From: a virus
Direction: 5' to 3' (one strand)
IMG/VR virus record: IMGVR_UViG_3300025127_000281
Coordinates: 1 to 23,810 of that record
DNA: 23,810 nt
The translations under genes and the position numbers were made by a program. Shown here one piece after another: positions 1 through 15,781 of this stretch (its first letter is position 1; each line of letters opens with the position of its first letter). The notes beneath the pieces are model-generated. The model did not search any database. It was not told the origin of the DNA and saw only the letters and a list, made by a program, of their open reading frames with translations.

Positions 1-795
1 GGAAGCACCTTATTGAAAAGTATTATTGACCAGAATCCAAACGTACATACTGAACCAGTTTCCCCAGTGATGGAGTTAATGTATCATAGTGAGCAATATT
101 TTAAACAGAGTGAACAATATATTGGATATCCTAAACCAAAAAATGCTTACAAAATTGTTGGTAGTTATATTGAAAATTATTATTATGAAATAGACAAACC
201 AATTGTCATTGATCACAATCGAGCATGGTCAAATAATATTGAAAGAATTAAAACATATCTAAATCCAAATCCAAAAATCATTTGTCCTGTTCGTGACATC
301 TCAGAGATACTCACATCATTTATTACAATGATACATCGAAACTCTGATGAGGTTTCTTTTATTGATGAAGACTTAATTGAAGGGGGATTCACAGTCGATG
401 ATGATAATCGATGTCAATATCTAATGAGTGATAATGGTATTGTAGAGCAAGCACTCTGGGCACAATCACAAGCTTTCATTCGAAATGAAACGAAGCACTT
501 GCTGATGGTTGAGTATGATGATATTGTGAATACTCCACAGGAAACAATGGATCGAATATATAATTTTTTAGAGATAGATGGATATAAACACGACTTTAAT
601 AATGTTAAAAATAATCATCGTGAAAGTGAGAAGCAATGGAATCTAAAAGATATGCATCATGTCAGAAATAAAGTACAGAAAATATCTAAGAAACCTGAAG
701 ATGTCTTATCACCATATATTCTAAATAAATATAGCAAACTGGAATATTGGAAGTATCCTGATAGCACCTACTTAAAAAATGGCAGCAACGAATAA
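1..795 (+). CDS. Sulfotransferase, 5'-truncated by window edge
   Basis: PAPS-dependent sulfotransferase that would transfer sulfate from PAPS to an unknown acceptor. The frame is open from the first base, and the first codons read GSTLL, the end of the P-loop (PRSGSTLL) that binds the 5'-phosphosulfate. The true start therefore lies upstream, and the TTG at 13 is not the start. The 3'-phosphate-binding segment is PVRDISEILTS. The protein is a clear paralogue of the sulfotransferase at 11932-12831, sharing the IGYPKP/TGYPKP, IDKPxVID and NRAW segments, the DxNRCQ motif, the NDHRE/NNHRE motif and the C-terminal LExWK region. Its end overlaps the next gene by 17 bases, so the two are probably cotranslated. 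The acceptor (host glycan, virion glycan or protein tyrosine) cannot be read from sequence. Confidence 0.85.
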   Translation, partial: GSTLLKSIIDQNPNVHTEPVSPVMELMYHSEQYFKQSEQYIGYPKPKNAYKIVGSYIENYYYEIDKPIVIDHNRAWSNNIERIKTYLNPNPKIICPVRDISEILTSFITMIHRNSDEVSFIDEDLIEGGFTVDDDNRCQYLMSDNGIVEQALWAQSQAFIRNETKHLLMVEYDDIVNTPQETMDRIYNFLEIDGYKHDFNNVKNNHRESEKQWNLKDMHHVRNKVQKISKKPEDVLSPYILNKYSKLEYWKYPDSTYLKNGSNE

Positions 796-3790
796 AAGAG
801 GTGTATTCTCTCTTGAAACGATAATAGAAAGACAGTCGGATTATAATTGGTCAGACATAAGTAATGTTTTTGCTTATGAAAACTCTTCAGCAACAGGAGG
901 ATCAGTTAGTAATCATGGTTATTTTACAGGAGGAGCATATCCTAGTGTATCTTCTGAGAAATCGACTATAGATCGGATTGATTTTACTAATGATACAGCA
1001 ACAGCATCACCAAAAGGCAATACATCTATAGCACGTAAAAATCATGGTGCTACTGGTAATAATTCTCATGGATATTCAGTTGGTCATTTTCCTGCAAACT
1101 CTACAACAGATCGAATTGATTACTCTAATGATACATCAACAGCATCACCAAAAGGTAAATTAGGGGAACCAAAAGGTTATGTATCCGCTACAGGTAATAA
1201 TAATTTTGGATATGTTGCTGGTGGATATTCACCAGGTAATGGTAGTCCAACTGACAGATCATCAACTGTAGATAGATTAGATTATTCAAATGATTCGTAT
1301 AACTGCACACAAAGAGCTAATTTGAGTAGTGGTAGATCTTCTGGATCAATGACTGGTAATCAAGACTTTGGATATCTTTGTGGTGGTAAAGTACCTGGCA
1401 TAGTATCAACGGTAGAGAGAATTGATTACAGCAATGATAATGCAACACCACTTACAAAAGGTCCATTAAGTGCGACACGTAGATATAATCATGCTACAGG
1501 TAATGCTAACTTTGGATATGTGTCTGGAACTGGTGGGTATAGTACACAAATAGATCGAATTGATTATGCAAATGACACAGCAACAGCATCTCCTAAAGGT
1601 CCATTTAGTGCTGCTTATTCATATCGAGCAGCAACAAGTACATCCTCATTTGGATACTTTGGTGGTGGACAAAATCCATCATCAACAGTTCACACGTATA
1701 TAGATCGTCTTGATTATTCAAGTGATACAACAACAGCATCACCAAAAGGTAATTTAAGTGTTGCATCTAATAAAGCAGCAGGGGTAAGTAGTCAAGAATG
1801 TGGATTATCAAATAAACCAAGAAGATTTAGATTTTATGATAATACACCAGCTCCAAGAGGATATTTTGCTGGTGGATTTAATAATAATACCGAAGGTAAT
1901 CCATGGAATTATTATTCAACTGTAGAGAGATATAATTTTGATAATGATACAGCAATGGCATCACCAAAAGCTAATTTACTATTTACAGGAACTACGGATC
2001 TTGCTGGTATTGCGACTCCTGATTTTTCATACTTTATTGGAGGTACATTAAGTTTTGGTCCTTATCCGTTTACTTATAAATCTTACGCAGAACGTCTTGA
2101 TCATAGTAATGATTCAATGGTAAGAAGAGGTACTATTTTACCAACACGTCGTGCACAAGTTACAGGAAACTCTAATTTTGGATACCTCAGTGGGGCTACT
2201 TATCCTGGTGATTCTTCATCTTACACTCAACTTACTTCGATAATAAGATTTGATTTTTCGAATGACGATACTTATCATAGTCCAACCGCTGCGATTTCCG
2301 CAGTATCACCACCTACACTTAGGGGAGCAGTATCAAGTGAAAATTTTGGATATTATGCAGGAGGATATATATCTGGCTCATCTTCAACTTTTGTTGAACG
2401 AATTGACTTTTCGAATGATACAGCTAATCTTGTAGCAAAAGGATCATTAAGTGAAGCAAGACAATCTTTGGGAGCAACAGGTAATAATCATTTTGGATAT
2501 ATGGCTGGTGGTAACTCTAATCCTGGTAGCACTTATCGCACCACAATAGATCGTCTTGATTACTCAAACGATACAGCAAATTTAGTTGCAAAAGGACCTT
2601 TATCTGTAGTGAAGAAAGAGTTTGGAGCATCGTCAAGTAATTCATATGCATACTTTGGTGGTGGATATAATCTTATTCCCGGTGGAAATAATTATCTATC
2701 TTCCACTGATCGTCTTGATTTTTCAAATGACACTGCGACAGCAGTTGCGAAAGGTAACCTATCTAGAAATAGAAATCAAATTGGAGCAACATCATCAGTG
2801 GTTCCAGCGACAGCACCAGTTCAACCACCATTCACATCTCCAACTATGTTGGTACAATATCCATCAGCATTTGGATATGGATATATTGTTGCTGGACCTA
2901 ATGTCAGCACAGTTTCAAGAATTGACTATTCAAATGATACTGCGACAGGAGTATCAAAAGGTCCTGATGACACTTCTGCAAATAAAGCATCCACAAGTAG
3001 TGAAACTCATGGATATCTTCTTGGTGGATACAGTCCAAACCAAGCCACCACAATCAAAAGAATTGATTATGCAAGTGATACATCAACAACGTCACCAAAA
3101 GGTAACTTAACAAGTGAGGCACTCCTCGCAATGTCTGGGCAAGGATTACATACTCCATCATATGGATGGATAGTTACTACTTATCCTGGAGGCAAAGTTG
3201 ATAGAATTGATTTTGCAAATGATACTGCAACTGCACCACAAAGATCAACAGGGGGAGATACTTCTATCAGAACAGGAAGCACTGGCAATCAAAGTTACGG
3301 TTGGAAAGTAGGAGGTTCGCCAAACAAAACTTTCACCTTTAGACTTGATTATGAAAATGATACATCAGCATTATCACCAAAAGGAAACATGGATAGTGGA
3401 ATAGATTGGCCTTCTTGTTTTGGTAATCAAAATTATGGATATTATGGTGGATCTCCTGGTGAAGAAGTCCCTAACTATACAAGAACATCTACTCATCGTA
3501 TTGATTATGCAAATGATACTGCTACATCAGTTCAAAAAGGTAGTTCCCCAATAGCATTTGGTATAGGATCTGGAACAAGTCATAATGACAATTATGGATA
3601 TATGGGAACGGGTGATATATATCCTGGTACTTATACGAGTAGCATTTTTCGAGTAGATTATGCAAATGATACTGTAGCAGCATCACCATCAGGTCCAGTT
3701 AGTTTTCCTGCTGCTTATGGAGCTACTAGAACTCGTGCGGTAAGTGCCGCTGATGGTGGCATGACACCTGGCAGTCCTTATGTTACTTGA
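779..3790 (+). CDS. Giant kelch-type repeat protein A (18 blades, probable tail fibre/adhesin)
   Basis: A 1003-aa protein made almost wholly of a 45-55-residue repeat. Each unit reads roughly GYFAGG - variable loop - (D/E)RIDYSNDTAT - xPKGxLSxAR - ATGN, which matches a kelch blade (GG strand, YD strand, turn, R). I count 18 DRIDYSND-type motifs. Non-repeat linkers at residues about 339-359 and 674-698 (the latter contains APVQPPF) divide them 6+6+6, suggesting three six-bladed beta-propellers at about 45-338, 360-673 and 699-988. Residues 1-40 are a separate N-terminal module (NKRGVFSLETIIERQ) shared with the larger paralogue at 6803. No signal peptide or membrane segment is visible. Size, repeats and neighbouring virion genes suggest a tail-fibre or other virion adhesin, but that role is inferred. 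No strong Shine-Dalgarno sequence precedes the ATG, which overlaps the sulfotransferase end. Confidence 0.85.
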   Translation: MAATNKRGVFSLETIIERQSDYNWSDISNVFAYENSSATGGSVSNHGYFTGGAYPSVSSEKSTIDRIDFTNDTATASPKGNTSIARKNHGATGNNSHGYSVGHFPANSTTDRIDYSNDTSTASPKGKLGEPKGYVSATGNNNFGYVAGGYSPGNGSPTDRSSTVDRLDYSNDSYNCTQRANLSSGRSSGSMTGNQDFGYLCGGKVPGIVSTVERIDYSNDNATPLTKGPLSATRRYNHATGNANFGYVSGTGGYSTQIDRIDYANDTATASPKGPFSAAYSYRAATSTSSFGYFGGGQNPSSTVHTYIDRLDYSSDTTTASPKGNLSVASNKAAGVSSQECGLSNKPRRFRFYDNTPAPRGYFAGGFNNNTEGNPWNYYSTVERYNFDNDTAMASPKANLLFTGTTDLAGIATPDFSYFIGGTLSFGPYPFTYKSYAERLDHSNDSMVRRGTILPTRRAQVTGNSNFGYLSGATYPGDSSSYTQLTSIIRFDFSNDDTYHSPTAAISAVSPPTLRGAVSSENFGYYAGGYISGSSSTFVERIDFSNDTANLVAKGSLSEARQSLGATGNNHFGYMAGGNSNPGSTYRTTIDRLDYSNDTANLVAKGPLSVVKKEFGASSSNSYAYFGGGYNLIPGGNNYLSSTDRLDFSNDTATAVAKGNLSRNRNQIGATSSVVPATAPVQPPFTSPTMLVQYPSAFGYGYIVAGPNVSTVSRIDYSNDTATGVSKGPDDTSANKASTSSETHGYLLGGYSPNQATTIKRIDYASDTSTTSPKGNLTSEALLAMSGQGLHTPSYGWIVTTYPGGKVDRIDFANDTATAPQRSTGGDTSIRTGSTGNQSYGWKVGGSPNKTFTFRLDYENDTSALSPKGNMDSGIDWPSCFGNQNYGYYGGSPGEEVPNYTRTSTHRIDYANDTATSVQKGSSPIAFGIGSGTSHNDNYGYMGTGDIYPGTYTSSIFRVDYANDTVAASPSGPVSFPAAYGATRTRAVSAADGGMTPGSPYVT
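911..3742 (+). repeat. Three six-blade kelch arrays in protein A
   Basis: In-frame tandem repeats of about 135-175 bp. Array 1 is about 911-1792, array 2 about 1856-2797 and array 3 about 2873-3742. Each holds six copies of the R-(I/L)-D-(Y/F)-(S/A)-N-D motif. Copies 7-9 (in array 2) are the most diverged, with ERYNFDND, ERLDHSND and IRFDFSND. The repeats drift at both DNA and protein level, so they are old duplications and not fresh slippage. Confidence 0.85.
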
Positions 3791-3815
3791 TTAATTTAAA
3801 AAGATTTGTTATAAT
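3787..3815 (+). promoter_or_regulatory. Putative extended -10 promoter after kelch gene A
   Basis: TTGATT (3787-3792, overlapping the kelch stop codon), a 17-base spacer and TGTTATAAT (3807-3815) form a good sigma70-type extended -10 promoter. It lies 20 bases before the glycosyltransferase start at 3836. The same arrangement recurs after kelch gene B and before the replication operon. Confidence 0.55.
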
Positions 3816-3835
3816 AAGTAAAACGTTTATTTTAT

Positions 3836-4489
3836 ATGGGTTTGATGATTGCCCTCCCCTGTCATGGAGGGATTGTAACTGAGAAAACTACGATGAGTTT
3901 ATTCAAACTCGGTAAACTTTTGGCGAGAAGTAATATACCTCACGGTCTTTTAACACAAGCAAATTCTTCTCTGATTACTCAAGGTAGATCGAAATGTGTT
4001 AATTTTTTTATCAATAATACTGATCACGAATATCTTTTCTTTTTAGATAGTGATATTGGATTTGATGAGTATGATGTGTTAAAGTTAATTAATCATCAGG
4101 TTGATATCGTTTCTGGTGCTTATCCAATGAAAACAATTCCAATTCGATACTGTATTAATGTTGTTCAACCAGAACAAAGAAAGGGAGACCTCTTAAAGAT
4201 TGAAGGAAACGGAATGGGATTTACTTTGATTCATCGAAATGTATTTCTGCAAATGGCACAGAAATTTCCAGATTTAAAATACATTCCACCGAAGGATGAT
4301 AGTAATGTTCCACCCACAGAAGCGGAGATAAATAACTCATACCATTTTTTTATGGAACATAAAAAAGGAGACGGGTTCTTATCTGAAGACAAGAGTTTCT
4401 TTTTTCGAGCAAGTATGCTAGGATATGATATATGGCTAGATACTACAATTAAATTACAACACGTTGGTTCACATATTTTTTCTGAATAG
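3836..4489 (+). CDS. GT-A fold glycosyltransferase (GT2/Anp1-like)
   Basis: Probable nucleotide-sugar glycosyltransferase of 217 aa. The fold signature is an N-terminal strand (MIALPCHG), an R-x-x-x-V-N segment near residues 51-57 and the metal-binding DxD as FFLDSDIGF (D71, D73), followed by VDIVSGAYPMK. A later GNGMGFTLIHRNVF strand-helix segment and a C-terminal EDKSFFFRA - GYDIWLDT - HVGSH stretch are typical of small phage GT-A enzymes, where the final His may be a metal ligand. It follows an extended -10 promoter and sits three bases before the GT4 gene. ATG 3845 is an in-frame alternative start; neither start has a strong Shine-Dalgarno sequence. Donor and acceptor are unknown. Confidence 0.8.
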   Translation: MGLMIALPCHGGIVTEKTTMSLFKLGKLLARSNIPHGLLTQANSSLITQGRSKCVNFFINNTDHEYLFFLDSDIGFDEYDVLKLINHQVDIVSGAYPMKTIPIRYCINVVQPEQRKGDLLKIEGNGMGFTLIHRNVFLQMAQKFPDLKYIPPKDDSNVPPTEAEINNSYHFFMEHKKGDGFLSEDKSFFFRASMLGYDIWLDTTIKLQHVGSHIFSE

Positions 4490-4492
4490 ATT

Positions 4493-6256
4493 ATGAAATC
4501 AGGAGCAACCGAAAGTTCTTATCAGTTTCTTTCGCAATATTATAAATTTCCAGAAGATGTCGAAGTAGCACATCTTCCACAGGAAATAATTAAATCAAAA
4601 AAGAAATATAAAATTCTCTGGGCACATCATGCATATGATCAACCAGTCTTTTTAAATTTTGATCACAATACAGTTGATCATATTGTATCTCCTTCACATT
4701 GGGCAAAGGAACAATTAGTTCGTTTTTTAAAAGTACCAAAGGAAAAGATAAGTGTGATCTCAAATGGAGTATCTGATAAATTTAAATACTCTGATGATAA
4801 AACAAAGACCTTCATCTATACATCAATACCTTATAAGGGATTAGAATTATTACCTCGAATTATTCCTTTAATTCAACAAAGACATCCCGATGCTAAATTT
4901 AAAATTTTTTCATCTATGTCTTTATATGGTAACATAATTGATCCTTATGTTGATCTATATCAAGATTTAAAATTGCTAAAGAACGTAGAGTATTCTGCTG
5001 CGGTTGATCAAGATGAATTGATTAAGCATTATCATGAATCTGCTTTCTTTATTCATCCAAATATATGGGAAGAAACATTTTGTGTTTCAATGGCAGAAGC
5101 GATGAAGTGTGGTTGCTATCCAATCATCACAAATATTGGAGCACTACCTGAAGTTGCAACTGATAAATTTGCTTCGATTGTTACACTGGAAGGAACCCGA
5201 ACAACTGAAAAATATGAGGTTACAGATAACTTTATAAATAAATTCGCAGAGATTTGTGTAGCTGCTGCAGATTACTTCGATGGTGATCGTGCTACATATA
5301 ATCAGATATCAAAATCTGCTTCAAATCATATAACTCAAAAATGTGATTGGAAGAAAATTTCCAAACAATGGAAAAAACTAATTACAAAAATTACAAGTGG
5401 AGAACCAATGACAAGTGACAAAAAAACTTCAGCATTAGATGGATATCAACCAATTAATTCTGAACAAGCGGTGCTTGATGAGGAATATTTGCATAAGGCA
5501 TTTCAAAATGTATTGAGATGGGAGGAGAGTGATAAGGAATTAGCACAGGGTAGAACTAACTTTCAGTTAGAAAAGTTTGCACTACTTGAAACTCACACAT
5601 TACCTGTTGCTTTTGAGAATACATTAAAGTCTCGTCGTCAGATGGCAGAAGGATATATGTACAAACTCATTGAGATGAAAGAGAAGGTTAGAGAGTTTGA
5701 ATACAAATGGAAAGATAAAGATAGAACACAACCACTTCTATGGGATCGAGGAGGTCCAGAATCAGGTAAAAAATTATGTTGGTTTGATTTAGATGAACTC
5801 TCACTTACACATTATCTGAAGTCATGTGAACTTGAAATTCGTGATCGTCTTCATCAGATGGAACACTTGGATAAGATTCTTGAAAAACTTGTTGAACAGA
5901 ATGATGGTAAAGTAGTAACTCGTGAGCAATTCCTTAATAGTGATGGTGAGTATTGGGAGCGTCGTTTTGCTGATCAGGCAATGGATGAAATGATTTCTTC
6001 TCAGACTGGTATTTCGATTGGTAACTTACATAGTATGCGTCGTGCTTCTGCACCTGCGATTGTAGATAAGAGAAATGAAATTCCAAATGGTTATGTCCCA
6101 TTAAATAAACTTCTTGAAAGTCCAAATGGAAAAATGGAATTCTTAAATGATCTTCAGAAAAAAGTCGTTCAAGGAATATCAGAAGTTACTGGAAATAATC
6201 TTGGAAAGATCACTGGAACATCAGAGGAGGATCAGAAAAAACTTCAAGGTGACTAA
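4493..6256 (+). CDS. GT4 glycosyltransferase fused to a phage-conserved domain
   Basis: A 587-aa two-part protein. Residues 1-305 are a retaining GT-B enzyme of the GT4 type: HHAYDQP (45-51), VSPSHWAKEQL, ISVISNGVSDKF (86-97), a donor-site strand FIYTSIPYKGLELL, and the E-x7-E region WEETFCVSMAEAMKCG (192-207). The N-terminal Rossmann half is short for the family. From Met306 (ATG 5408) the character changes to a charged, helical sequence (residues 306-587, with long runs such as ENTLKSRRQMAEGYMYKLIE). I recall this as a stand-alone hypothetical protein in other marine T4-like phages. A GGAGA sits at 5399-5403, four bases before ATG 5408, so the C-terminal part may also be made alone. The stop overlaps the next start (TAATG). 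Confidence 0.8.
   Translation: MKSGATESSYQFLSQYYKFPEDVEVAHLPQEIIKSKKKYKILWAHHAYDQPVFLNFDHNTVDHIVSPSHWAKEQLVRFLKVPKEKISVISNGVSDKFKYSDDKTKTFIYTSIPYKGLELLPRIIPLIQQRHPDAKFKIFSSMSLYGNIIDPYVDLYQDLKLLKNVEYSAAVDQDELIKHYHESAFFIHPNIWEETFCVSMAEAMKCGCYPIITNIGALPEVATDKFASIVTLEGTRTTEKYEVTDNFINKFAEICVAAADYFDGDRATYNQISKSASNHITQKCDWKKISKQWKKLITKITSGEPMTSDKKTSALDGYQPINSEQAVLDEEYLHKAFQNVLRWEESDKELAQGRTNFQLEKFALLETHTLPVAFENTLKSRRQMAEGYMYKLIEMKEKVREFEYKWKDKDRTQPLLWDRGGPESGKKLCWFDLDELSLTHYLKSCELEIRDRLHQMEHLDKILEKLVEQNDGKVVTREQFLNSDGEYWERRFADQAMDEMISSQTGISIGNLHSMRRASAPAIVDKRNEIPNGYVPLNKLLESPNGKMEFLNDLQKKVVQGISEVTGNNLGKITGTSEEDQKKLQGD
5399..5410 (+). promoter_or_regulatory. Possible internal ribosome-binding site and start
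   Basis: GGAGA at 5399-5403 followed four bases later by an in-frame ATG (5408), exactly at the boundary between the GT4 domain and the C-terminal phage domain. It would give a 282-aa product. It is one of the better Shine-Dalgarno sequences in this part of the window, where most starts lack one. Confidence 0.45.
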
Positions 6257-6810
6257 TGAATCAAAAATTTATTATTGTAGATGATTTTTATGATATTGCT
6301 TGTCGGGTTGGTAAAGATATCAACCTTAATTTTGATGAAACTGAATATAAAGATGGGGTTGTTGATGAGCTAACTGACAAAGTATCTCTTATTTTAAATC
6401 GTCCTATTCGAATAAATCATGTTATTAATGAAGTAATTTCAGAGGGTTCTTCAAATTATATTACATCAAATACAAAGTTCGATTGGATTGCAATTATATA
6501 TTTTAATCTTCCTACGGAGACACATCATCTTGGTAGAGGATTAAGTTTTTATTTGCACCAATCTACTGGATTAGATTGTTTTCCAAATGAAATGGCATGT
6601 AAAATAAATGGTCTTCAAAATATGGAAGATATTTTACGATGTTTTGATGTAAATAATCAATCATATTGGAAAGAATTTTTAAACATTTACATTAAATATA
6701 ATCGCATGATATTATTTCGTGCTGATTTGTGGCATTCATATGGAGTTGGTTTTGGTAACGAACTAAATAATTCAATGAAGCAACAAAAAGTATTAATACA
6801 AAATGTCTGA
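6256..6810 (+). CDS. DUF6445-like 2OG-Fe(II) oxygenase-type protein
   Basis: A 184-aa protein resembling the DUF6445 family, which has the double-stranded beta-helix fold of 2-oxoglutarate/Fe(II) dioxygenases. The recognisable parts are WIAIIYFNLP (strand), GRGLSFYLHQSTG (in this family usually GGxxFYRHxxTG) and YNRMILFRADLWHSYGVGFG, which carries the distal His. A canonical HxD is not obvious, so catalytic status is uncertain. The start overlaps the upstream stop (TAATG), and the end overlaps kelch gene B by 8 bases. It is therefore probably cotranslated with the repeat protein, making that protein or its glycans a plausible substrate (inference). Confidence 0.65.
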   Translation: MNQKFIIVDDFYDIACRVGKDINLNFDETEYKDGVVDELTDKVSLILNRPIRINHVINEVISEGSSNYITSNTKFDWIAIIYFNLPTETHHLGRGLSFYLHQSTGLDCFPNEMACKINGLQNMEDILRCFDVNNQSYWKEFLNIYIKYNRMILFRADLWHSYGVGFGNELNNSMKQQKVLIQNV

Positions 6811-9800
6811 TAACAGGGGAATATTTACATTAGATGAGTTATATGAACTTCAAGTAAGCGGACTTTTCGAGCATATAAATGATGTTTGGATATATGCTCG
6901 AAACATTAAAAATGATTTTGGTTTTTATGCTGGTTATCATGATGGAGGACATTCATATGTTACAAATATATACCGCCATGATTTTAGTGATGATACCATA
7001 ACATCGGCAAGTCAACTGACTGTGGCTAAATCACAAATGGGAGCTGTATCTAGTAGTGACTATGGATATTTCTTTGGTGGAAAAAATCCAAGTTCTTCCG
7101 TTGTATCGAATGTAGACCGATTAGATTTTAATAATAACACGACAGCAACATCACCAAAGGGAAATTTAGCTAATCCGATTAATATTTGCGACTCTGCTGG
7201 TAATGCTTCTTATGGTTATGCTCATGGATTGGCTTCTACTTCATATGCAACTTATATCCATAGAATTGATTATGCAAACGATACTGCAACAGCACCAGCA
7301 CATTTAAATTTTCCAGCAGCAAAATATTATGGTGCTGCAATGGGTAATCAAAATTATGGATATTGGGCAGGAGGATCAGCACCAGGTCCTTCTTACACCA
7401 AAACATCTACTATTCATCGAGTTGATTATTCTAATGATACTGCAGACGCATCACCTAAAGGAACTTTAAATAATATTGGTGTTTACGGAAATAATACTCA
7501 AACCTCTGGACAAGGTAATGCTGATTACGGATATGTTGCAGGTGGATATATATTTGCTGCTGTAACAAATGTAAGAAGAATTGATTACTCAAACGATACA
7601 GCAGTAACAGTAGATAAAGGTAATTTAGCTTCCCAAATGGCAAAGGGTGCATCTACTGGTAATCATTCTAATGGATACTTTGCAGGAGGATCTAATGTTT
7701 CCTCCATCCAGAAAGTAGATTTCTCTAATGATACTGCAACAGCAACAGCAGTGGCTTCTTTAACTGGTGCAGGTAATTCACCGTATTTTATAGGTGATAG
7801 CGGCACCAGTCCTTTAGAAAATGGTAATCCAATAACATACTTAGGTGCTATAGAGGGAATTCCTGCTACTACATTAGGTCCTGCCATGGGTTATGTTCTT
7901 GGGGGAGCATTTCCATACAGTTTTTCAATAGTAGACCGTATGGATTATTCAAATGACACTGCTACAATGGCGGTCAAAGGTCCATTAAGTGCTGGAACTT
8001 CATATCAAGCTGCTGTAAGTAGTAAAGATCATGGATATTCAATGGGTGGTAAGACACCTTCAAACGGTAAATCATCAAAAGTAGATCGTGTTGATTACGC
8101 AAACGACACTGCAACAGCAGCAGTCAAAGGTCCATTATCTGCAGGTGTTTACAGATCATATGCTGGAGTTGGAAATAAAGATTATGGATATCATTCTGGT
8201 GGAAATAGACCAGGAACATCCAGTACAATAGATCGTATTGAATATGCAAGTGATACATCAACAGCAACTCCTAAAGGTAATTTAGCATCTGCTAGATATC
8301 TTCACTCTGGAGCAGGTAATTTAAGTTATGGATATCAAATTGGAGGATCTCCACCATTCCAAAATAATTCTGTGGTTCAAAGAATAGATTATGGAAATGA
8401 TACAGCAACAGCAGTAACAAAAGGTAATCTAAATCAAGGTTCAAGAAAAGCAACTTCAACAGGAAATGCTTCATATGGATATGTTGGTGGTGGAACAAAC
8501 CCAAATCTATCTCAGATAACACGAATAGATTATTCAAATGATACAGCAACATCAGTCGCAAAAGGTCCGCTGACTGTTGACAGAGCATCTCTATCTTCTT
8601 TTAGTGCACCTGGTCATGGATATTTTGCTGGTGGTAATTACACTATGTTATCATCAGTAGATCGCATGGACTATTCAAATGACACAGCAACAGCAGTCGC
8701 AAAAGGTCCATTAAGTTCTGCCAGAGGTTATAATTCTGGTGTAAGTTCGAGAGATATAGGTGGTTCATTATCAACAACAAGTAAACCAGCAAGAAAAAGA
8801 TTTTCTGATGGTGCTACTGAAACACCTGCTGGAACAGCAGCTCCTGGACATGCATATTTTGCTGGTGGAGGACCTTCTCCAAGTGGAAAAACAATAGTAG
8901 ATCGACTTGATTTCTCTAATGACAGTGCTGCAATGGCACCTAAAGGATCATTGTCTCAAAGTAGAAAACAATTAACTGCGGTAGGTAGTCCTTCTTATGC
9001 GTATATGATGGGTGGATATGATGCTAATGCTTCTCCTGGATATGAATTATCTTATATTGATCGAATTGATTATGCAAGTGATACCTCAACAGCAACACCA
9101 AAAGGACTATTAGCAGAAGGCACATATTATGCTGGAGCAACAGGCACTGCCTCTTATGGATATAATGGTGGAGGAAGAGCAAGTAGTGGTGTTATATCAT
9201 GTACGGTTCAACGTATTGATTATAGTAATGATACTGCAACAGCATCACCAAAAGGTTATTTAACAATTCGTAGAAGAAATTTTGCTGGATGTGTGGGCAA
9301 TACTTCTTATGGATATTGGAGTGGTGGTGAGAATAATGCTTCTACATTTATTTCAACAACAGAAAGAGTTGACTTTTCAAATGATACAGCAGCAGCAGTA
9401 GTCAAAGGTCCAGTAGACGGTCCTGTTAGAGGAGCTTCTGATGGAACAGGTAATGCAAATTATGGATATTATGCTGGTGGATATTATCCAGATAGTCCAG
9501 CCCCAGCTCATAGGTATTCAATAGTATCTCGTATTGATTATTCAAGTGACACAGGAACAATACCAACAAAAGCAGCATTATCTAATAGTTTATCAGCAAC
9601 GGGAGCAGCAGGTAACGCATCATATGGATATTGGGGTGCTGGAGCAGATCCTTCAGGTCTTAAAACATCAGTAGATAGAATAGATTTTTCAAATGATACT
9701 TCAACACCAACAGTAGTAACAGCTTACTTATCAAATGCCAGAGCTCAGGCAGGAGCAGCAAGTGGTTTAATGTATGGACTTCCCCAAACAGCCTCAGCAG

Positions 9801-10810
9801 CAGTCGCAGCACCAGTTCAACCACCATTCCCATTCCCAGTACAAGCACATAATCCAGCTAATTATGGATATTTTGCTGGTGGATATGACGGTACTAATCC
9901 TTCTGGTCCTACTGGTGATTTGACAATAGTACAACGTATTGATTTTTCAAACGATACAGCAACAGCGTCATTAAGAGGTAATCTTGCAAACACTCCTGGT
10001 TCTTTAAAATCTACTTCAAGCAATAGAAATTATGGTTATGTTGTTGGAGGATCTACTGTTCCTTCTGTTTCATATGTAGAGCGTATTGATTATGCAAATG
10101 ATTCTGCAACCGCATTAGTAAGAGGACCTTTAGGAGGACCAGTAAGAGGATCTACAGCAGGGGCTGGAAATAATGATTATGGATGGCACACTGGAGGAAT
10201 GTATGCTCTTCCCTCTAGAACAAATTACTCACTCGTAGAAAGAATTGACTATTCAAATGATAGTTCAACGACTTCAACAAGAGGACCATTAGTATCTGCT
10301 AGATGTTATCATAACGCAACAGGTACTCTTAATTATGGATACTTCGCAGCAGGTTCTCCAAATGGAGCATTTGGTCCTAATAGTTCTACAGTACAACGTA
10401 TTGATTATGGAAATGATACAGGAACAGCATCACCAAAAGGTCCTTTAGCTCATTCAACATCTCAACTTGGTTCGACAGGCAATGCTAATTATGGATGGTT
10501 TATTGCTGGATACGGTCCTGCTAGGTCAAAAATATCTCGTGTTGATTATGCGAATGACACTGCAACAGCATCAGCAAGAGGACCATTGTATCAACCATCA
10601 TACAGATTAGAAGGAACTGGTAATGCTAATTACGGATACGTTCATCCTGGATTGTATCCTTCAAATCCTGCAGGACCTGATGGTAGCACTGATGTAGCAA
10701 GAATTGATTATAGTAATGACACTACTACAACATCGACTAAAGGTCATTTTGCCAGAGCATACCAAATTCAAGAAGGAGGAGTATCTGCTGCAGAAAATGG
10801 ACGTACTTAA
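6803..10810 (+). CDS. Giant kelch-type repeat protein B (24 blades, probable tail fibre/adhesin)
   Basis: A 1335-aa paralogue of the 779-3790 protein. It opens with the same module (DNRGIFTLDELYELQ), then has 24 blades of the GY-x-x-GG ... RIDYSNDTATA-x-PKGxL form. Linkers at residues about 326-361, 649-680 and 988-1018 divide them 6+6+6+6, suggesting four six-bladed propellers (about 39-325, 362-648, 681-987 and 1019-1328). Linker 2 (KPARKRFSDG...TAAPGHAYFAGG) resembles linker 1 of protein A (KPRRFRFYDNTPAPRGYFAGG). Linker 3 shares APVQPPF with linker 2 of protein A. Protein B thus looks like protein A plus one extra N-terminal propeller. The ATG overlaps the DUF6445-like gene. A virion adhesin role is inferred from size, repeats and context. 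Confidence 0.85.
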   Translation: MSDNRGIFTLDELYELQVSGLFEHINDVWIYARNIKNDFGFYAGYHDGGHSYVTNIYRHDFSDDTITSASQLTVAKSQMGAVSSSDYGYFFGGKNPSSSVVSNVDRLDFNNNTTATSPKGNLANPINICDSAGNASYGYAHGLASTSYATYIHRIDYANDTATAPAHLNFPAAKYYGAAMGNQNYGYWAGGSAPGPSYTKTSTIHRVDYSNDTADASPKGTLNNIGVYGNNTQTSGQGNADYGYVAGGYIFAAVTNVRRIDYSNDTAVTVDKGNLASQMAKGASTGNHSNGYFAGGSNVSSIQKVDFSNDTATATAVASLTGAGNSPYFIGDSGTSPLENGNPITYLGAIEGIPATTLGPAMGYVLGGAFPYSFSIVDRMDYSNDTATMAVKGPLSAGTSYQAAVSSKDHGYSMGGKTPSNGKSSKVDRVDYANDTATAAVKGPLSAGVYRSYAGVGNKDYGYHSGGNRPGTSSTIDRIEYASDTSTATPKGNLASARYLHSGAGNLSYGYQIGGSPPFQNNSVVQRIDYGNDTATAVTKGNLNQGSRKATSTGNASYGYVGGGTNPNLSQITRIDYSNDTATSVAKGPLTVDRASLSSFSAPGHGYFAGGNYTMLSSVDRMDYSNDTATAVAKGPLSSARGYNSGVSSRDIGGSLSTTSKPARKRFSDGATETPAGTAAPGHAYFAGGGPSPSGKTIVDRLDFSNDSAAMAPKGSLSQSRKQLTAVGSPSYAYMMGGYDANASPGYELSYIDRIDYASDTSTATPKGLLAEGTYYAGATGTASYGYNGGGRASSGVISCTVQRIDYSNDTATASPKGYLTIRRRNFAGCVGNTSYGYWSGGENNASTFISTTERVDFSNDTAAAVVKGPVDGPVRGASDGTGNANYGYYAGGYYPDSPAPAHRYSIVSRIDYSSDTGTIPTKAALSNSLSATGAAGNASYGYWGAGADPSGLKTSVDRIDFSNDTSTPTVVTAYLSNARAQAGAASGLMYGLPQTASAAVAAPVQPPFPFPVQAHNPANYGYFAGGYDGTNPSGPTGDLTIVQRIDFSNDTATASLRGNLANTPGSLKSTSSNRNYGYVVGGSTVPSVSYVERIDYANDSATALVRGPLGGPVRGSTAGAGNNDYGWHTGGMYALPSRTNYSLVERIDYSNDSSTTSTRGPLVSARCYHNATGTLNYGYFAAGSPNGAFGPNSSTVQRIDYGNDTGTASPKGPLAHSTSQLGSTGNANYGWFIAGYGPARSKISRVDYANDTATASARGPLYQPSYRLEGTGNANYGYVHPGLYPSNPAGPDGSTDVARIDYSNDTTTTSTKGHFARAYQIQEGGVSAAENGRT
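6917..10786 (+). repeat. Four six-blade kelch arrays in protein B
   Basis: Array 1 is about 6917-7777, array 2 about 7886-8746, array 3 about 8843-9763 and array 4 about 9857-10786, each with six blade-coding units. Short near-identical DNA segments recur between blades, for example around 8525-8567 and 8668-8710 (both encode an IDY/MDY-SNDTAT stretch followed by VAKGPL), and could serve as recombination substrates. The first two blades are the most diverged. Confidence 0.85.
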
Positions 10811-10847: not shown

Positions 10848-11510
10848 ATGATAGACAATCCTTTGACAAATATTTTAATTCGACCAAACATAATAAACCC
10901 AGAGGGTTTAAAGGAAATGGTTGATCATATAAAAATAGCTAATAAAGAAGATTTATCTGTATTTGACCCAGATGAAACAAATCGGACAGGAGAAACTCAG
11001 TGGAGAACAGATAAGAAAGTCAGAGACACTCAGGTGGTTGAGATGGGACATTTGTTTCCAAAGATTTGTGATCTTTTTAAATATGCTGTTAAAGAAGTCG
11101 TAAATCCTTTTTATGGTTTTGAAGTTGAAAGCAGTGAAGTTCCACAGGTTTTATCTTATGGAGTCGGTGGTCACTATCAACCACATATAGACGGTGAAAG
11201 TATATGGGTTACACCAAATGGAGAAAAAATTTGGAAGAAATCAACAGACAGAGACTTATCATTTGTATTCTATTTGAATGATGAATTTGAAGGTGGAGAC
11301 TTTGTATTTCCAGAGCATAACATTCGAGTTAGACCGAAGCCTGGTATGTTAGTTACTTTCCCTTCGAATCATAATTATTTACATGGAGTTGAACCAGTCA
11401 CCAGAGGTAAAAGATATTCAATTGTGACATGGGCTAAAATAAAAGGATTTCCATCATTACAGGAAATAAATGAAAATTTATCTAGACAATACGGTGTTCC
11501 TGTGATATAA
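10848..11510 (+). CDS. Prolyl 4-hydroxylase-like 2OG-Fe(II) dioxygenase
   Basis: A 220-aa Fe(II)/2-oxoglutarate dioxygenase of the prolyl-hydroxylase (PHD2/P4H-like) group, a protein-hydroxylating family. The full active-site set is visible: HYQPHIDGE supplies His113 and Asp115, HGVEPVTRGKRYSIVTW supplies the distal His179, and Arg189 at +10 is the 2OG carboxylate anchor. GGDFVFPEHNIRVRPKPGMLVTFPS is the strand-turn segment typical of the family. The GTG-free start is ATG 10848; an earlier ATG at 10837 runs into a stop after four codons. The gene follows kelch gene B after an extended -10 promoter. Marine T4-like phages often carry such genes; their substrates are mostly unknown, and tail-fibre proteins are a reasonable guess here. 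Confidence 0.9.
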   Translation: MIDNPLTNILIRPNIINPEGLKEMVDHIKIANKEDLSVFDPDETNRTGETQWRTDKKVRDTQVVEMGHLFPKICDLFKYAVKEVVNPFYGFEVESSEVPQVLSYGVGGHYQPHIDGESIWVTPNGEKIWKKSTDRDLSFVFYLNDEFEGGDFVFPEHNIRVRPKPGMLVTFPSNHNYLHGVEPVTRGKRYSIVTWAKIKGFPSLQEINENLSRQYGVPVI

Positions 11511-11513
11511 ATA
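11506..11513 (+). promoter_or_regulatory. T4-type late promoter motif
   Basis: TATAAATA at 11506-11513 exactly matches the T4 late promoter -10 box recognised by gp55 with gp33. It overlaps the stop codon of the hydroxylase gene and lies 22 bases upstream of the ATG at 11536. I saw no other full eight-base match on the + strand while reading, but my scan was by eye. Confidence 0.5.
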
Positions 11514-11535
11514 TTATGAAACTAAAAAAATTTAA

Positions 11536-11925
11536 ATGAAATATTTAAAACATTACTGGAAATCCACAGAGAGTGGAGATTATCTTACTACTGTTAATAC
11601 TATTCATAAGAGACATCCAGAAGTAGAATTTGCTGGACTAGATGTTCAAATATGGATGCATGATGCTGATGGCATAGATGTCTGCATGGCACAAGTTCCT
11701 GATAGTACAACGATTACTGATGTTACAATCGGTTCTAAAAAAGCTATTCAAGAGTTGACAGAAACACAGTATAATACAGTGAAGACACCATTAGATGCTT
11801 CATATGCATTGAATGAAGAAGCAATGACTGCTGAAATGAGTGGTGATACAAGCACTGCTGAAACAAAAAGAACAGAGGCAACTACCAAATATAACGAAGC
11901 AAAAACTGCTTTACTTGCATTATAA
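11536..11925 (+). CDS. Phage-conserved protein of unknown function, 129 aa
   Basis: I do not recognise a named domain. The N-terminal half (KYLKHYWKSTESGDYLTTVNTIHKR..) looks like a compact alpha/beta unit. The C-terminal third (from about residue 75) is Ala/Thr/Glu-rich and helical (LNEEAMTAEMSGDTSTAET..), suggesting a coiled coil. It sits between the hydroxylase and the second sulfotransferase, downstream of a TATAAATA motif, so a late, virion-related role is plausible. No Shine-Dalgarno sequence precedes the ATG. Confidence 0.75.
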   Translation: MKYLKHYWKSTESGDYLTTVNTIHKRHPEVEFAGLDVQIWMHDADGIDVCMAQVPDSTTITDVTIGSKKAIQELTETQYNTVKTPLDASYALNEEAMTAEMSGDTSTAETKRTEATTKYNEAKTALLAL

Positions 11926-11931
11926 AACTGA

Positions 11932-12831
11932 ATGAAAACTTTTTATTTTATGGCGGGTCTTCCTCGTTCAGGAAGTACTCTTTTGTCAACATTATTAAAT
12001 CAGAATCCAAGAATTTACTCAGGTCCTTCGAGTCCTGTTCTTGGTACAATCTATGCGACTCATGATAGTTTCATATCCAATGAACTTTATACAGGATATC
12101 CAAAACCAAATCAGGTGAATGAAATCATTGGTTCAGTGATCGAACATTGGTATAGTGACATCGATAAACCAGTCGTAATAGATAAGAATCGTGCTTGGTG
12201 TGCGAGAGTGCCTTTTATTGAAGGATACATCAAGCAAGAAGCAAAAATAATTGTGCCAGTTCGAAGAGTTGATGAGATATTAGCATCGATTCTTACGATG
12301 ATTAAGCGCAATCCATTTCAAGATGGACAACCAAGAATTAATTTTGTAGATGAATATCTAGTAAAAAATAATACACCAATCAATGATGAGAACCGTTGTC
12401 AACATCTTTTAAATCCTGATGGTATTGTATGGGAATCATTAAATGCAACTAAACTTGGAGTTGATGAAGGATATGGTGACAAATTTCATTATGTAGACTA
12501 TAATGATTTAATTACAGATCCACAAGGTCAACTGAATCAAATTTATGAATTTTTAGGTGAAGATTCATTCGAACATACGTTTGATAACCTATCAAATGAT
12601 CATCGTGAGGATGATCTCACAACTTATGGATTAGGTGACATGCATAAAGTTCATAAAAAAATTCAAAAAAAATCACAGGATCCAAATTCAATTATTCCTG
12701 ACTCAATAATTGAACTATATAATAAGAATAAAAAAACACTTGAATTTTGGAAAATTCATGATACAATGGAAATGAAACCTAATATTATTTCACCTAACAA
12801 TTCAAACAATTATAATCTATTTTCTAGATAA
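11932..12831 (+). CDS. Sulfotransferase
   Basis: A complete 299-aa PAPS-dependent sulfotransferase. GLPRSGSTLLSTLL near residues 9-22 is the 5'-phosphosulfate loop, and PVRRVDEILASILTM (about 105-119) is the 3'-phosphate site with the conserved Arg and Ser. YNDLITDPQGQLNQIYEFLG and the following NDHRE segment are typical of this family. It is a full-length relative of the gene cut by the start of the window, and the pair brackets the kelch/glycosyltransferase block. The last 20 residues are Asn-rich and probably disordered. It lies six bases after the 129-aa gene and two bases before the next, so it is cotranscribed with them. The acceptor is unknown. Confidence 0.9.
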   Translation: MKTFYFMAGLPRSGSTLLSTLLNQNPRIYSGPSSPVLGTIYATHDSFISNELYTGYPKPNQVNEIIGSVIEHWYSDIDKPVVIDKNRAWCARVPFIEGYIKQEAKIIVPVRRVDEILASILTMIKRNPFQDGQPRINFVDEYLVKNNTPINDENRCQHLLNPDGIVWESLNATKLGVDEGYGDKFHYVDYNDLITDPQGQLNQIYEFLGEDSFEHTFDNLSNDHREDDLTTYGLGDMHKVHKKIQKKSQDPNSIIPDSIIELYNKNKKTLEFWKIHDTMEMKPNIISPNNSNNYNLFSR

Positions 12832-12833
12832 AA

Positions 12834-13175
12834 ATGGCAATCACACATACACAAACTGTCAGTAACCTAACAGTTGTAAATGACGGTACAGATGTCGTAT
12901 CGCAAGTTTCAGTTAAAACAGTATCGGTAGATGATTCTGATCCAACAAATCTTACCATTGAAGGTGAAGACGTTATTGATGTCGATACAAGCGGGGGTAA
13001 CACCGCATCCGGATTTATTAATTACAGTGCTCTCACACAAGACACGATATTAAATTGGACTGAAGTCAAAACTGCTCTTGATAATTCTAATACAAAGGTC
13101 AATCAAGAAGCATGGATTAATTCAGTTAAGACACCTCCTACACCATCACACGTTAATAAGGATCTACCTTTCTAA
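12834..13175 (+). CDS. Small phage-conserved protein (MAITHT.. type), 113 aa
   Basis: A small beta-rich, acidic protein beginning MAITHTQTVSNLTVVNDG and ending in the pattern KTPPTPSHVNKDLPF. I recall this N- and C-terminal pattern from small proteins of unknown function in many T4-like cyanophages, often near tail-fibre genes. The PTP-NKDLPF tail is distinctive. No catalytic motif, signal or membrane segment is visible. It sits two bases after the sulfotransferase. A structural or tail-associated role is plausible but unproven. Confidence 0.8.
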   Translation: MAITHTQTVSNLTVVNDGTDVVSQVSVKTVSVDDSDPTNLTIEGEDVIDVDTSGGNTASGFINYSALTQDTILNWTEVKTALDNSNTKVNQEAWINSVKTPPTPSHVNKDLPF

Positions 13176-13196
13176 CTTACATCATAATACTTTATT

Positions 13197-14099
13197 ATGC
13201 CACAGAAAAAATATTCATTGTTCCATGTACAAGGTGGATTTGGAAAACATGTTGCATCGACTGCAGTTGCGAAGTGTATTAAGAACAACTTTCCGAGTCG
13301 TGAGTTGATAGTTACTGGTGTTTGGACGGAAATATATCAGAATCTTCCATTTGTAGATCGTGTCTATCAAATGGGAAATACAAGTTACTATTATCAAACG
13401 TATGTTGAAGATATGGATTCACTGGTCTTTGCGAATGAACCATACTTTACAACTGATCATGTAAATAAAAAACTTCCTCTTGTTGAATCTTGGTGTAAGA
13501 TGTATAACCTTGATTACAATGGGGAGATGCCACAGATAAAATATAATCCTTTACAGAAAAAAATAGCAAGAGAGTTTTGGCCAAGTCGAGCAAATGGTAA
13601 ACCAATTATGGTGATACAAACTAATGGTGGTATGTATCAGGAACAAAGACCATACTTATGGGCAAGAGATATGCCTGTGGTTCTTGCACAAAAACTTGTA
13701 GATCATTATGCTGATGATTATCATATCTTCCAAGTCACAAGACCTTCATGTGAAATCCTAGACGGTGTTGAAGCAATCAAAGATCCTATGTCTAACATGG
13801 AACTTGTTAGTACATTATTATATGCTGATAAAAGAATTTTGATTGATAGTTGTTTACAACACGCTGCTGCAGCACTAAAGATGCCATCAGTTGTATTGTG
13901 GAATGGCACAAGTCCAAAAGTATTTGGATGGGACATGCACACAAATATACAGGCAAAGAAACCTGCGAAGTTTAAGTTACCGAATAGTGTATTATTTGAC
14001 TTTGATTTTACTGGTCAGGAAGCTGAGTATCCATATGTAGATGAGGATGATGAGATATTTGATTTTGATAAGATTGTAGAGGCAGTTGATAAATCATGA
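13197..14099 (+). CDS. GT9-like (heptosyltransferase-type) glycosyltransferase
   Basis: A 300-aa GT-B protein resembling ADP-heptose:LPS heptosyltransferases (GT9). N-terminal HVQGGFGKHVASTAVAKCIKNNFP matches the glycine-rich loop and first helix; the GVWTEIYQNLPFVDRVYQ segment follows. In the C-terminal half, ILIDSCLQHAAAALKMPSVVLWNGTSPKVFGW (from about residue 214) matches the family's D-(S/T)-x-x-x-H-x-A-A-A donor-site motif, with D217, S218 and H222 visible. It overlaps the carbamoyltransferase by ATGA, so the two are translationally coupled, which suggests that the transferred sugar is then carbamoylated. Targets could be LPS/O-antigen or virion glycans. Confidence 0.8.
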   Translation: MPQKKYSLFHVQGGFGKHVASTAVAKCIKNNFPSRELIVTGVWTEIYQNLPFVDRVYQMGNTSYYYQTYVEDMDSLVFANEPYFTTDHVNKKLPLVESWCKMYNLDYNGEMPQIKYNPLQKKIAREFWPSRANGKPIMVIQTNGGMYQEQRPYLWARDMPVVLAQKLVDHYADDYHIFQVTRPSCEILDGVEAIKDPMSNMELVSTLLYADKRILIDSCLQHAAAALKMPSVVLWNGTSPKVFGWDMHTNIQAKKPAKFKLPNSVLFDFDFTGQEAEYPYVDEDDEIFDFDKIVEAVDKS

Positions 14100-15781
14100 A
14101 TGTAGTTGGACTTTATGGTGCGATTGGTTGGAACGTAGTTATTTCTGACAATCCAAAACTTTTGAAGCAATCAGAAGACTCTTGGACGCATGGTGCGAGT
14201 GTAACTCTCATCAAGGATGGAGAACACTGTGTCAGTATTAGTGAAGAGAGATTAAGTAAGATTAAATATGATGGTAACTTTCCGAGAAAGTCCATAGAGT
14301 ATTGTTTGTCCGCTGCAAACTTAGATAAGAATGATATTGATTTGGTCATTGTTCCATCAATGGCGAACCAAAATTTCTATAAAAATTATATTAATAAAAC
14401 GATTGAGAAGAAAGTTAAAAGATATTTTCCAAAGGCAGAAGTTAGAATCGCATCTCATCACCTATGTCACGCATACTCTTCTGTATTCTCTTGTGACTAT
14501 AATGAAGGATCGTTTGTGACACTTGACAATGCAGGGTCAGTCATGTTTGATACATCAGGACAGATATTTGCCTGTGAGAATCATTCATTTGGATACTTCA
14601 ATAAGAAGAAAGGATTGTTCAAATACTATCCTGGCGTTCCAATGACAAATAATCTTGGAAATTATTATTGGATGTGGGCATATCACATTTATGTGAACAA
14701 GATGCAGAAAGAAATACAACTTACAGATCCAAAGTATCGTGAAACTTTTTGTGGAAAAGTAATGGGACTCTCTGCCTATGGTAATCTCAAAGAGTTTAAG
14801 AAGGATTGGAGAACACACTTTGAAGGTATACCACAGGTTGCACTTGAATCTTTACCTGGTCGTGACTTTAACTATGGTAATCTTTCACCAGAGAATAAGG
14901 CAAAGCAACTCCAATATAATTTTGAAAATGGAATGCTTGAATGGATGAAGGAACTCAAAGAACAGGATTATATTAGTGATAATCTTTGTCTTGCAGGTGG
15001 TGTCTTTCTAAACATACTCGCAAACTCTGTGCTGCGTAAGAATAAGGTGACAGAGAATATACATATCCCACCATTCCCAGATGATACTGGGCTCTCATTT
15101 GGAGCAGCATGCATTGGCGCGTTTAAGAATAATGATGTTGTTATCTTGCCACATAATATTTCTTTACTTGGTAAAACTTACAGTGAGGAAGAGGTCGAAG
15201 AGGCACTCGTAGATACAGAATATAAAAAATATGATGACTTCGATAAACTTTGTGAAGATATTTCAGAGTATCTTGCGGACAATAAGATTATTGGATGGTT
15301 CCAGAACAGGTCAGAGTTTGGTCCAAGAGCACTTGGATCAAGATCAATACTTATGAATCCAACTCCACAGAAAAATAAAGAGACAATTAACAAACGTATC
15401 AAACATCGTGAAGAGTGGAGACCTTTTGCAGGTATTATGCTTGAAGAATATCAAGAAGAATATTTTATGGATGTATTCCCAAATGAATATATGTTGTATT
15501 CTTTAACAGTAAGACCACATAAGAGAAAACAATTAGGTGCCATAACTCATAAAGATTTTAGCTGTCGTATTCAAACTGTAAACGATGAATTACATCCAGA
15601 AGTTACATCTCTTTTACAAAAATATCATAAGCTAACTGGTTGTCCTGTTCTTTTAAATACATCATTTAATGATAATGGTCAACCGATTATTGAGACACCA
15701 AAAGATGCTATAGATACATTTAATAAAATTGATTTGGACTATCTGGTTCTTAACAATTTTTTAATTACTAAAAACAAATAA
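14096..15781 (+). CDS. Carbamoyltransferase (NodU/CmcH family)
   Basis: A 561-aa enzyme expected to move a carbamoyl group from carbamoyl phosphate (via carbamoyl-AMP) to a sugar hydroxyl. The N-terminal Kae1-like part shows HGASVTLIKDG, the substrate/metal His cluster HHLCHA (H121, H122, H125), and VTLDNAGS. LAGGVFLNILANS and FPDDTGLSFGAAC follow. The C-terminal carbamoyltransferase part shows RSEFGPRALGSRSIL, EWRPFAGIMLEE and CPVLLNTSFNDNGQPI. It is full length for the family. The ATG overlaps the GT9 stop (ATGA). Phage examples are known in marine myoviruses, where surface or virion glycan modification is presumed. No terminator is visible after it. Confidence 0.92.
   Translation: MNVVGLYGAIGWNVVISDNPKLLKQSEDSWTHGASVTLIKDGEHCVSISEERLSKIKYDGNFPRKSIEYCLSAANLDKNDIDLVIVPSMANQNFYKNYINKTIEKKVKRYFPKAEVRIASHHLCHAYSSVFSCDYNEGSFVTLDNAGSVMFDTSGQIFACENHSFGYFNKKKGLFKYYPGVPMTNNLGNYYWMWAYHIYVNKMQKEIQLTDPKYRETFCGKVMGLSAYGNLKEFKKDWRTHFEGIPQVALESLPGRDFNYGNLSPENKAKQLQYNFENGMLEWMKELKEQDYISDNLCLAGGVFLNILANSVLRKNKVTENIHIPPFPDDTGLSFGAACIGAFKNNDVVILPHNISLLGKTYSEEEVEEALVDTEYKKYDDFDKLCEDISEYLADNKIIGWFQNRSEFGPRALGSRSILMNPTPQKNKETINKRIKHREEWRPFAGIMLEEYQEEYFMDVFPNEYMLYSLTVRPHKRKQLGAITHKDFSCRIQTVNDELHPEVTSLLQKYHKLTGCPVLLNTSFNDNGQPIIETPKDAIDTFNKIDLDYLVLNNFLITKNK

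Follow-up and report, generated by a model that had tools for sequence, protein, structure and literature searches.

Chains of predicted six-bladed kelch-like propellers in a T4-like marine phage and the exchange of whole rings among their relatives

Introduction

How does a protein built from tens of similar repeats keep their number to exact multiples of six? This question is raised by two proteins, A and B, encoded on a DNA fragment of 23.8 kb from a T4-like marine phage (23,810 nucleotides, referred to as the window). The original prediction, made from the sequence alone, held that selection seems to preserve closed six-bladed beta-propellers strung along one chain, and saw in them a multi-propeller fibre architecture. 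Here, we combined blade counting, structure prediction and comparison with related viral contigs to examine the fold of the repeats, the way in which the sixes are kept and the possible role of the chains.

Results

Layout of proteins A and B

Both chains are intact open reading frames, A of 1003 aa and B of 1335 aa, and the features of the locus are as follows.

1..795, + strand: sulfotransferase preceding chain A and belonging to the conserved chain cassette
779..3790, + strand: protein A, N-terminal segment and three six-bladed kelch-like rings, 18 blades (6, 6, 6)
779..904, + strand: A N-terminal segment, RGVFSLETIIERQ..., about 42 aa; relatives have segments of this RERQ class as well
917..1801, + strand: A ring 1, blades 1-6, start GYFTGG, closing strand NKAAGVSS
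1802..1858, + strand: A linker 1, CGLSNKPRRFRFYDNTPAPR region, low pLDDT at residues 345-356
1859..2797, + strand: A ring 2, blades 7-12, blade 7 being the degenerate RYNFDND
2798..2878, + strand: A linker 2, VPATAPVQPPFTSPTMLVQYPSAF..., low pLDDT at residues 677-696
2879..3751, + strand: A ring 3, blades 13-18, closing strand RTRAVSAAD
3836..6256, + strand: two glycosyltransferase-like genes between the chains, position kept in relatives
6256..6810, + strand: 184-aa protein preceding chain B, matching DUF6445 weakly and under the cutoff, position kept in relatives
6803..10810, + strand: protein B, N-terminal segment and four six-bladed rings, 24 blades (6, 6, 6, 6)
6803..6919, + strand: B N-terminal segment, MSDNRGIFTLDELYELQVSG...
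6920..7810, + strand: B ring 1, blades 1-6
7811..7888, + strand: B linker 1
7889..8752, + strand: B ring 2, blades 7-12
8753..8851, + strand: B linker 2
8852..9766, + strand: B ring 3, blades 13-18; the stretch 8810-9802 was modelled as a closed six-bladed kelch propeller
9767..9865, + strand: B linker 3, APVQPPFPFPVQ..., sharing its motif with A linker 2
9866..10798, + strand: B ring 4, blades 19-24, C-terminal closing strand EGGVSAAEN
10848..11510, + strand: 2OG-Fe(II) oxygenase directly after chain B, position kept in relatives

The predicted counts of 18 motifs in A and 24 in B were borne out by a profile, which found exactly these numbers. A fixed motif pattern gave 16 sites in A and 24 in B, since it skips RIDFTND in the first blade of A and the degenerate RYNFDND in the seventh, and the count of 18 thus holds if degenerate blades are included. 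By the same profile, blades follow each other at 44-57 aa within rings, and longer spacings occur only after blades 6 and 12 in A (69 and 77 aa) and after blades 6, 12 and 18 in B (72, 78 and 80 aa), precisely where linkers had been placed. Given the matches of both proteins to the PHROG_19111 profile (E = 3.5e-104 for A, 4.4e-133 for B) and the recurrence of the same pattern in about 100 relatives, this six-by-six arrangement is far from chance.

Fold of the rings

Ring 3 of B was modelled as a monomer with an alignment of 105 related rings that the analyst had cut at the linkers, and it closed as a six-bladed propeller (pLDDT 90.2, pTM 0.90), as had been expected of a six-blade segment. In a Foldseek search, its best 50 PDB matches were all six-bladed kelch propellers, natural or designed, with target TM scores of 0.85-0.93, and included KLHL12, KEAP1, KLHL domains and the designed SAKe6. 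In addition, a profile matched KLHL12 (E = 2e-6) and phmmer matched a designed kelch protein, while Pfam kelch scores stayed under the gathering cutoff (15.9 vs 22 bits and 18.4 vs 21.6 bits). Nearly every blade carries GYFxGG, with the double glycine after strand b that is typical of kelch repeats; of the spaced Tyr and Trp that follow the glycines in kelch blades, a Tyr/Phe is present in RIDY and the Trp is absent from the blade consensus. In the kelch topology, a C-terminal strand completes the first blade (velcro closure). Each phage ring opens on strand b and has one additional strand a at its end (most chains carry a motif of this strand, for instance LAATSAAANGLPQ, at the C terminus), so the last strand would complete the first blade; predicted structure and ring-end sequence thus agree on a closed propeller of four-stranded blades.

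The monomer model of the full A chain (pLDDT 75) loses confidence at residues 345-356 and 677-696, which are its two linkers, and its top PDB matches are LRP2/megalin followed by the same kelch domains as for B ring 3. Hence, the full-chain prediction upheld the division into rings at both linkers, but with a pTM of 0.45 it does not predict the orientation of the rings relative to each other; by the same token, the propeller chain of the original prediction is supported, and 'fibre' stays a conjectural word for its overall form. Taken together, the ring model with its Foldseek matches, the closing strand a and the breaks of the A model at the linkers support closed six-bladed propellers strung on one chain as the best reading of these predictions. 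That the repeats instead build one continuous, open solenoid or a single large ring, with incidental breaks, would be suggested only by the units being tandem and alike; the confident closed model with its kelch matches, the closing strand at ring ends and a linker after every sixth blade in about 100 chains speak so clearly against it that we consider it very improbable, and the open solenoid was rejected on the ring model and the closing strand.

The two faces of the rings differ strongly in sequence. By entropy, the face formed by the a-b and c-d loops is nearly invariant and that formed by the b-c and d-a loops is hypervariable, the b-c loop ranging from 2 to 16 residues with about 3-3.8 bits at most positions (the search pattern fixes some of the conserved letters). 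Such variability is as expected of a putative binding surface.

The rule of six among relatives

Relatives were collected by two motif scans of viral contigs, for the RIDYSND motif and for the GYFGGG strand, and the chain set, drawn from the matches listed, is a sample. After neighbouring pieces of one contig had been joined and near-duplicates removed, 98 distinct complete chains were obtained among the matches listed, with 6 blades in 22 chains, 12 in 18, 18 in 20, 24 in 10, 30 in 10, 36 in 7 and other numbers in 11. Exact multiples of six, set beforehand as the test for homologues, were therefore found in 87/98, and ten of the eleven off-six chains proved, when read by eye, to be undercounted or to come from broken genes. 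In five of them the profile had overlooked blades, and the true counts are 18 (L162), 30 (c30433_3105), 18 and 12 (both L129) and 12 (L133). The other five are fragments of broken genes: L113 and the Synechococcus phage S-SKS1 each contribute one through a frameshift, a further S-SKS1 fragment lies at the end of its record, and L158 contributes two, which were taken as frameshifted from comparison with L162. The S-SKS1 pieces readable together give 6+6. Apparent counts of 5, 7, 9, 11, 14, 16, 17 and 29 were in this way traced to missed degenerate blades, frameshifts and record ends.

The single real-looking exception among the matches listed is a 4+6 chain (L149, 636-2177). Its blades are 84-95% identical in DNA and contain a 120-nt exact repeat, so that both a deletion and a short-read assembly collapse are possible. 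Six is kept even at about 25% identity, in marine virus AG-345-L05 (18, 18 and 12 blades) and AG-345-O18 (18). It is kept too in a large, very remote protein (L162, 2637-9260; 18 blades), whose proline-rich repeats are followed by three six-bladed kelch-like rings and these by RCC1-like repeats.

Other arrangements were also seen. Four contigs (L022, L042, L010 and L088) carry tandem arrays of separate one-ring genes with another N terminus (MSITITGGISFSGG), and chain genes are split by frameshifts in S-SKS1 (L128, 1663-6216), L113 (1050-3653) and L011 (3855-8575), where sequencing error, decay and phase variation are not distinguished. A bacterial or prophage origin was rejected, as no relatives were found in the genome collection at the sensitivity used.

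Gain, loss and exchange of whole rings

Whether gains and losses come in sixes had been proposed as a test, and a 30-blade chain (contig c5074) shows such a step: its rings 1, 4 and 5 correspond to rings 1, 5 and 6 of its 36-blade orthologues, and the five-ring chain equals the six-ring chains minus exactly one ring. When chains with the same number of rings are paired, DNA identity stays level within each ring and shifts abruptly from one ring to the next. One such pair has rings at 60%, 100% and 53% with linkers at 89% and 92%; another has rings at 53%, 60% and 98% with linkers at 88% and 93%. Jumps of more than 20 points were found inside 2/106 rings vs across 16/76 linkers (Fisher p = 2e-5, the pairs not being fully independent), with pairs chosen by half-ring identity to avoid selecting ring-sized blocks. 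Linkers are also more conserved than the flanking rings in same-class pairs (0.75 vs 0.63). Because identity jumps at linkers and hardly ever inside rings, the exchange of rings as whole cassettes, whose breakpoints lie within or close to linkers, is strongly supported.

Why six

Blade likeness gives a further view of how the sixes arose. Blades at the same ring position are alike at 0.546, other blades at 0.536 and neighbours in one ring at 0.564. Ring neighbours being most alike and same positions barely more alike than others, these small differences suggest that blades have also been copied inside rings, with six kept by selection. Whole-ring duplication with fixed blade positions was considered and rejected, the position signal being weak and strongest at blade 6.

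The sixes might instead be passive history, with rings copied or deleted whole at linkers and no selection on blade number. The travel of rings as cassettes with breaks near linkers, as well as the good conservation of the linkers themselves, would fit such a history. Against it, the blade likenesses point to copying at the level of blades within rings, single-ring genes and far-diverged remote relatives still have six, and near-identical arrays may lose blades, as L149 suggests, yet such counts are rare. We therefore regard a purely passive origin as rather unlikely, though it deserves some weight. The sixes hold in homologues, and six may be kept partly by whole-ring recombination near linkers and not only by selection against other numbers.

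Sister chains

Related phages carry two or three chain genes, which fall into N-terminal classes (RGIFxLxDVRERQ, RGIFRLKQVYEEQ and DVFGLEQIYxLQ), and sister chains of one genome are about 29-73% identical. All complete chains share one ring number in 16/23 genomes, where shuffling expects 3.3 and reached a maximum of 11 in 20,000 shuffles; the shuffle leaves in genome kinship, and a few counts were set by hand for frameshifted or missed blades. The window, with three and four rings, is one of the 7/23 exceptions. Two explanations offer themselves: a need for sister chains to be of equal length, or homogenisation by recombination. Here we speculate, tentatively, that divergent chains (usually three) with different docking N termini might assemble alongside each other in a single appendage, ring number serving as a length ruler matched between partners, and that cassette swaps at linkers would change receptor specificity while keeping length.

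Genomic setting

The right end of the window carries gp32 and the baseplate wedge gene gp53, together with open reading frames that resemble ThyX and PhoH as read from the sequence. The window gp32 is 85% identical to that of AG-345-L05 (a Kyanoviridae record) and about 80% identical to those of Prochlorococcus phages P-SSM2 and P-SSM5, whereas the window chains are only about 27% identical to the chains of AG-345-L05, which argues that the chains diverge fast.

In relatives, the chains lie in a cassette that runs from a tail fibre or baseplate-connector gene through a chain, modification genes, a second chain, further modification genes and a third chain to a 2OG-Fe(II) oxygenase, the order of the inner blocks varying somewhat. 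The gene adjoining the cassette in related contigs matches tail fibre or fibre-connector PHROGs; in the window, the left end cuts the cassette. The window order (sulfotransferase, A, two glycosyltransferase-like genes and the 184-aa protein, B, oxygenase) is the right-hand part of this cassette, starting inside the sulfotransferase, which in relatives follows another chain gene, and a third chain therefore probably lies just left of the window.

Modification genes are dense around the chains (3836-6810 and 10848-15781), with glycosyltransferases, two sulfotransferases (one at 1-795), the oxygenase and a carbamoyltransferase, in positions largely conserved in relatives, and may decorate the chains or a surface glycan. 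A 113-aa protein at 12834-13175 has a DUF7936 match barely over cutoff.

Discussion

We read A and B, with a probability of about 0.75, as tail-associated adhesin chains in which an N-terminal docking segment precedes the closed six-bladed kelch-like propellers, three in A and four in B, the ring being the unit of both folding and evolution. Tail location, adhesion, N-terminal docking and an extended bead-on-string shape are what we infer from this material, and the N-terminal segment of A is likely its docking part. The sequence evidence suggests and favours a tail-borne multivalent adhesin because of the tail-fibre genes adjacent in relatives, fusions of rings to LamG-like and tail-like regions, the hypervariable face and the precedent of phage CBB. 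In that phage, the kelch proteins CBB_550, CBB_552 and CBB_554 adjoin LamG structural proteins, and CBB_552 was detected in the virion by mass spectrometry (PMC5259590).

Another surface role is possible for the chains, because glycan and modification enzymes are numerous among their neighbours. Peptide binding is common in kelch domains, and modification enzymes sit between the chain genes, so that the chains could also be imagined as multivalent kelch adaptors acting within the infected cell, like the kelch proteins of poxviruses, and not on the virion. With tail-fibre and baseplate-connector genes adjoining in relatives, rings fused to tail-like and LamG-like regions, divergence that is fast relative to core genes and a single-ring kelch protein present in CBB virions, we judge this intracellular role improbable.

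In the proposed adhesin, a short N-terminal segment would dock the chain, and three (A) or four (B) rings would follow on short linkers. The C-terminal strand a of each ring would complete its own first blade, so that the ring closes as a folding unit. Whole rings would be gained, lost and swapped by recombination in or near the linkers, whereby blade number stays a multiple of six, and the variable b-c/d-a face would provide the putative binding surface. Whole-propeller exchange would, most likely, rebuild the tail-borne adhesins.

Such chains represent a quantised domain count, in which tens of similar blades come in exact sixes and evolution acts on whole propellers, and they offer a natural system for testing how ring closure is maintained in repeat proteins. 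Cassette exchange is in addition a plausible route for marine phages to change their adhesins, and PHROG_19111, previously without assigned function or structure, now has a structural reading. Beyond the initial counts, the present analysis adds ring-level gain, loss and exchange as a mechanism for the sixes, identifies one possible exception and shows that sister chains usually have matching ring numbers. The literature searched yielded no description of propeller chains in cyanophages or tail fibres; the fold itself and phage kelch proteins were already known, and what is new, as far as that literature shows, is the stringing of as many as six rings on one phage chain and the exchange of these rings as units.

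Among known systems, the kelch propellers of KLHL12, KEAP1 and SAKe6 share with the phage rings six four-stranded blades, the double glycine after strand b and a C-terminal strand a that closes blade 1. The phage chains differ in falling below the Pfam kelch cutoffs, in bearing an R-I-D-Y-S-N-D-T signature in place of the kelch Trp and in stringing up to six rings per chain. LRP2/megalin and related receptors likewise carry several six-bladed propellers on one polypeptide, a likeness of architecture only: LRP2-type receptors have YWTD blades with EGF-like domains between them, and A and B gave no Pfam match to YWTD repeats or EGF-like spacers, which sets them apart from the LRP type.

Closer in kind are the kelch proteins of CBB, which also have the kelch fold in a phage, but with one ring per gene (by length) and in a jumbo phage of enterobacteria; a BFVD structural search matched them to the chains weakly, and the match is structural only. 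PHROG_19111 and S-SKS1 belong to the same family by profile, S-SKS1 having two chains with 6+6 blades across frameshifts and differing in its two rings per chain. Finally, newly amplified beta-propellers, the kelch lineage included, arise by amplification of blades (PMC9218822). The amplification described there concerns blades, whereas in the phage chains the amplified and exchanged unit is the ring.
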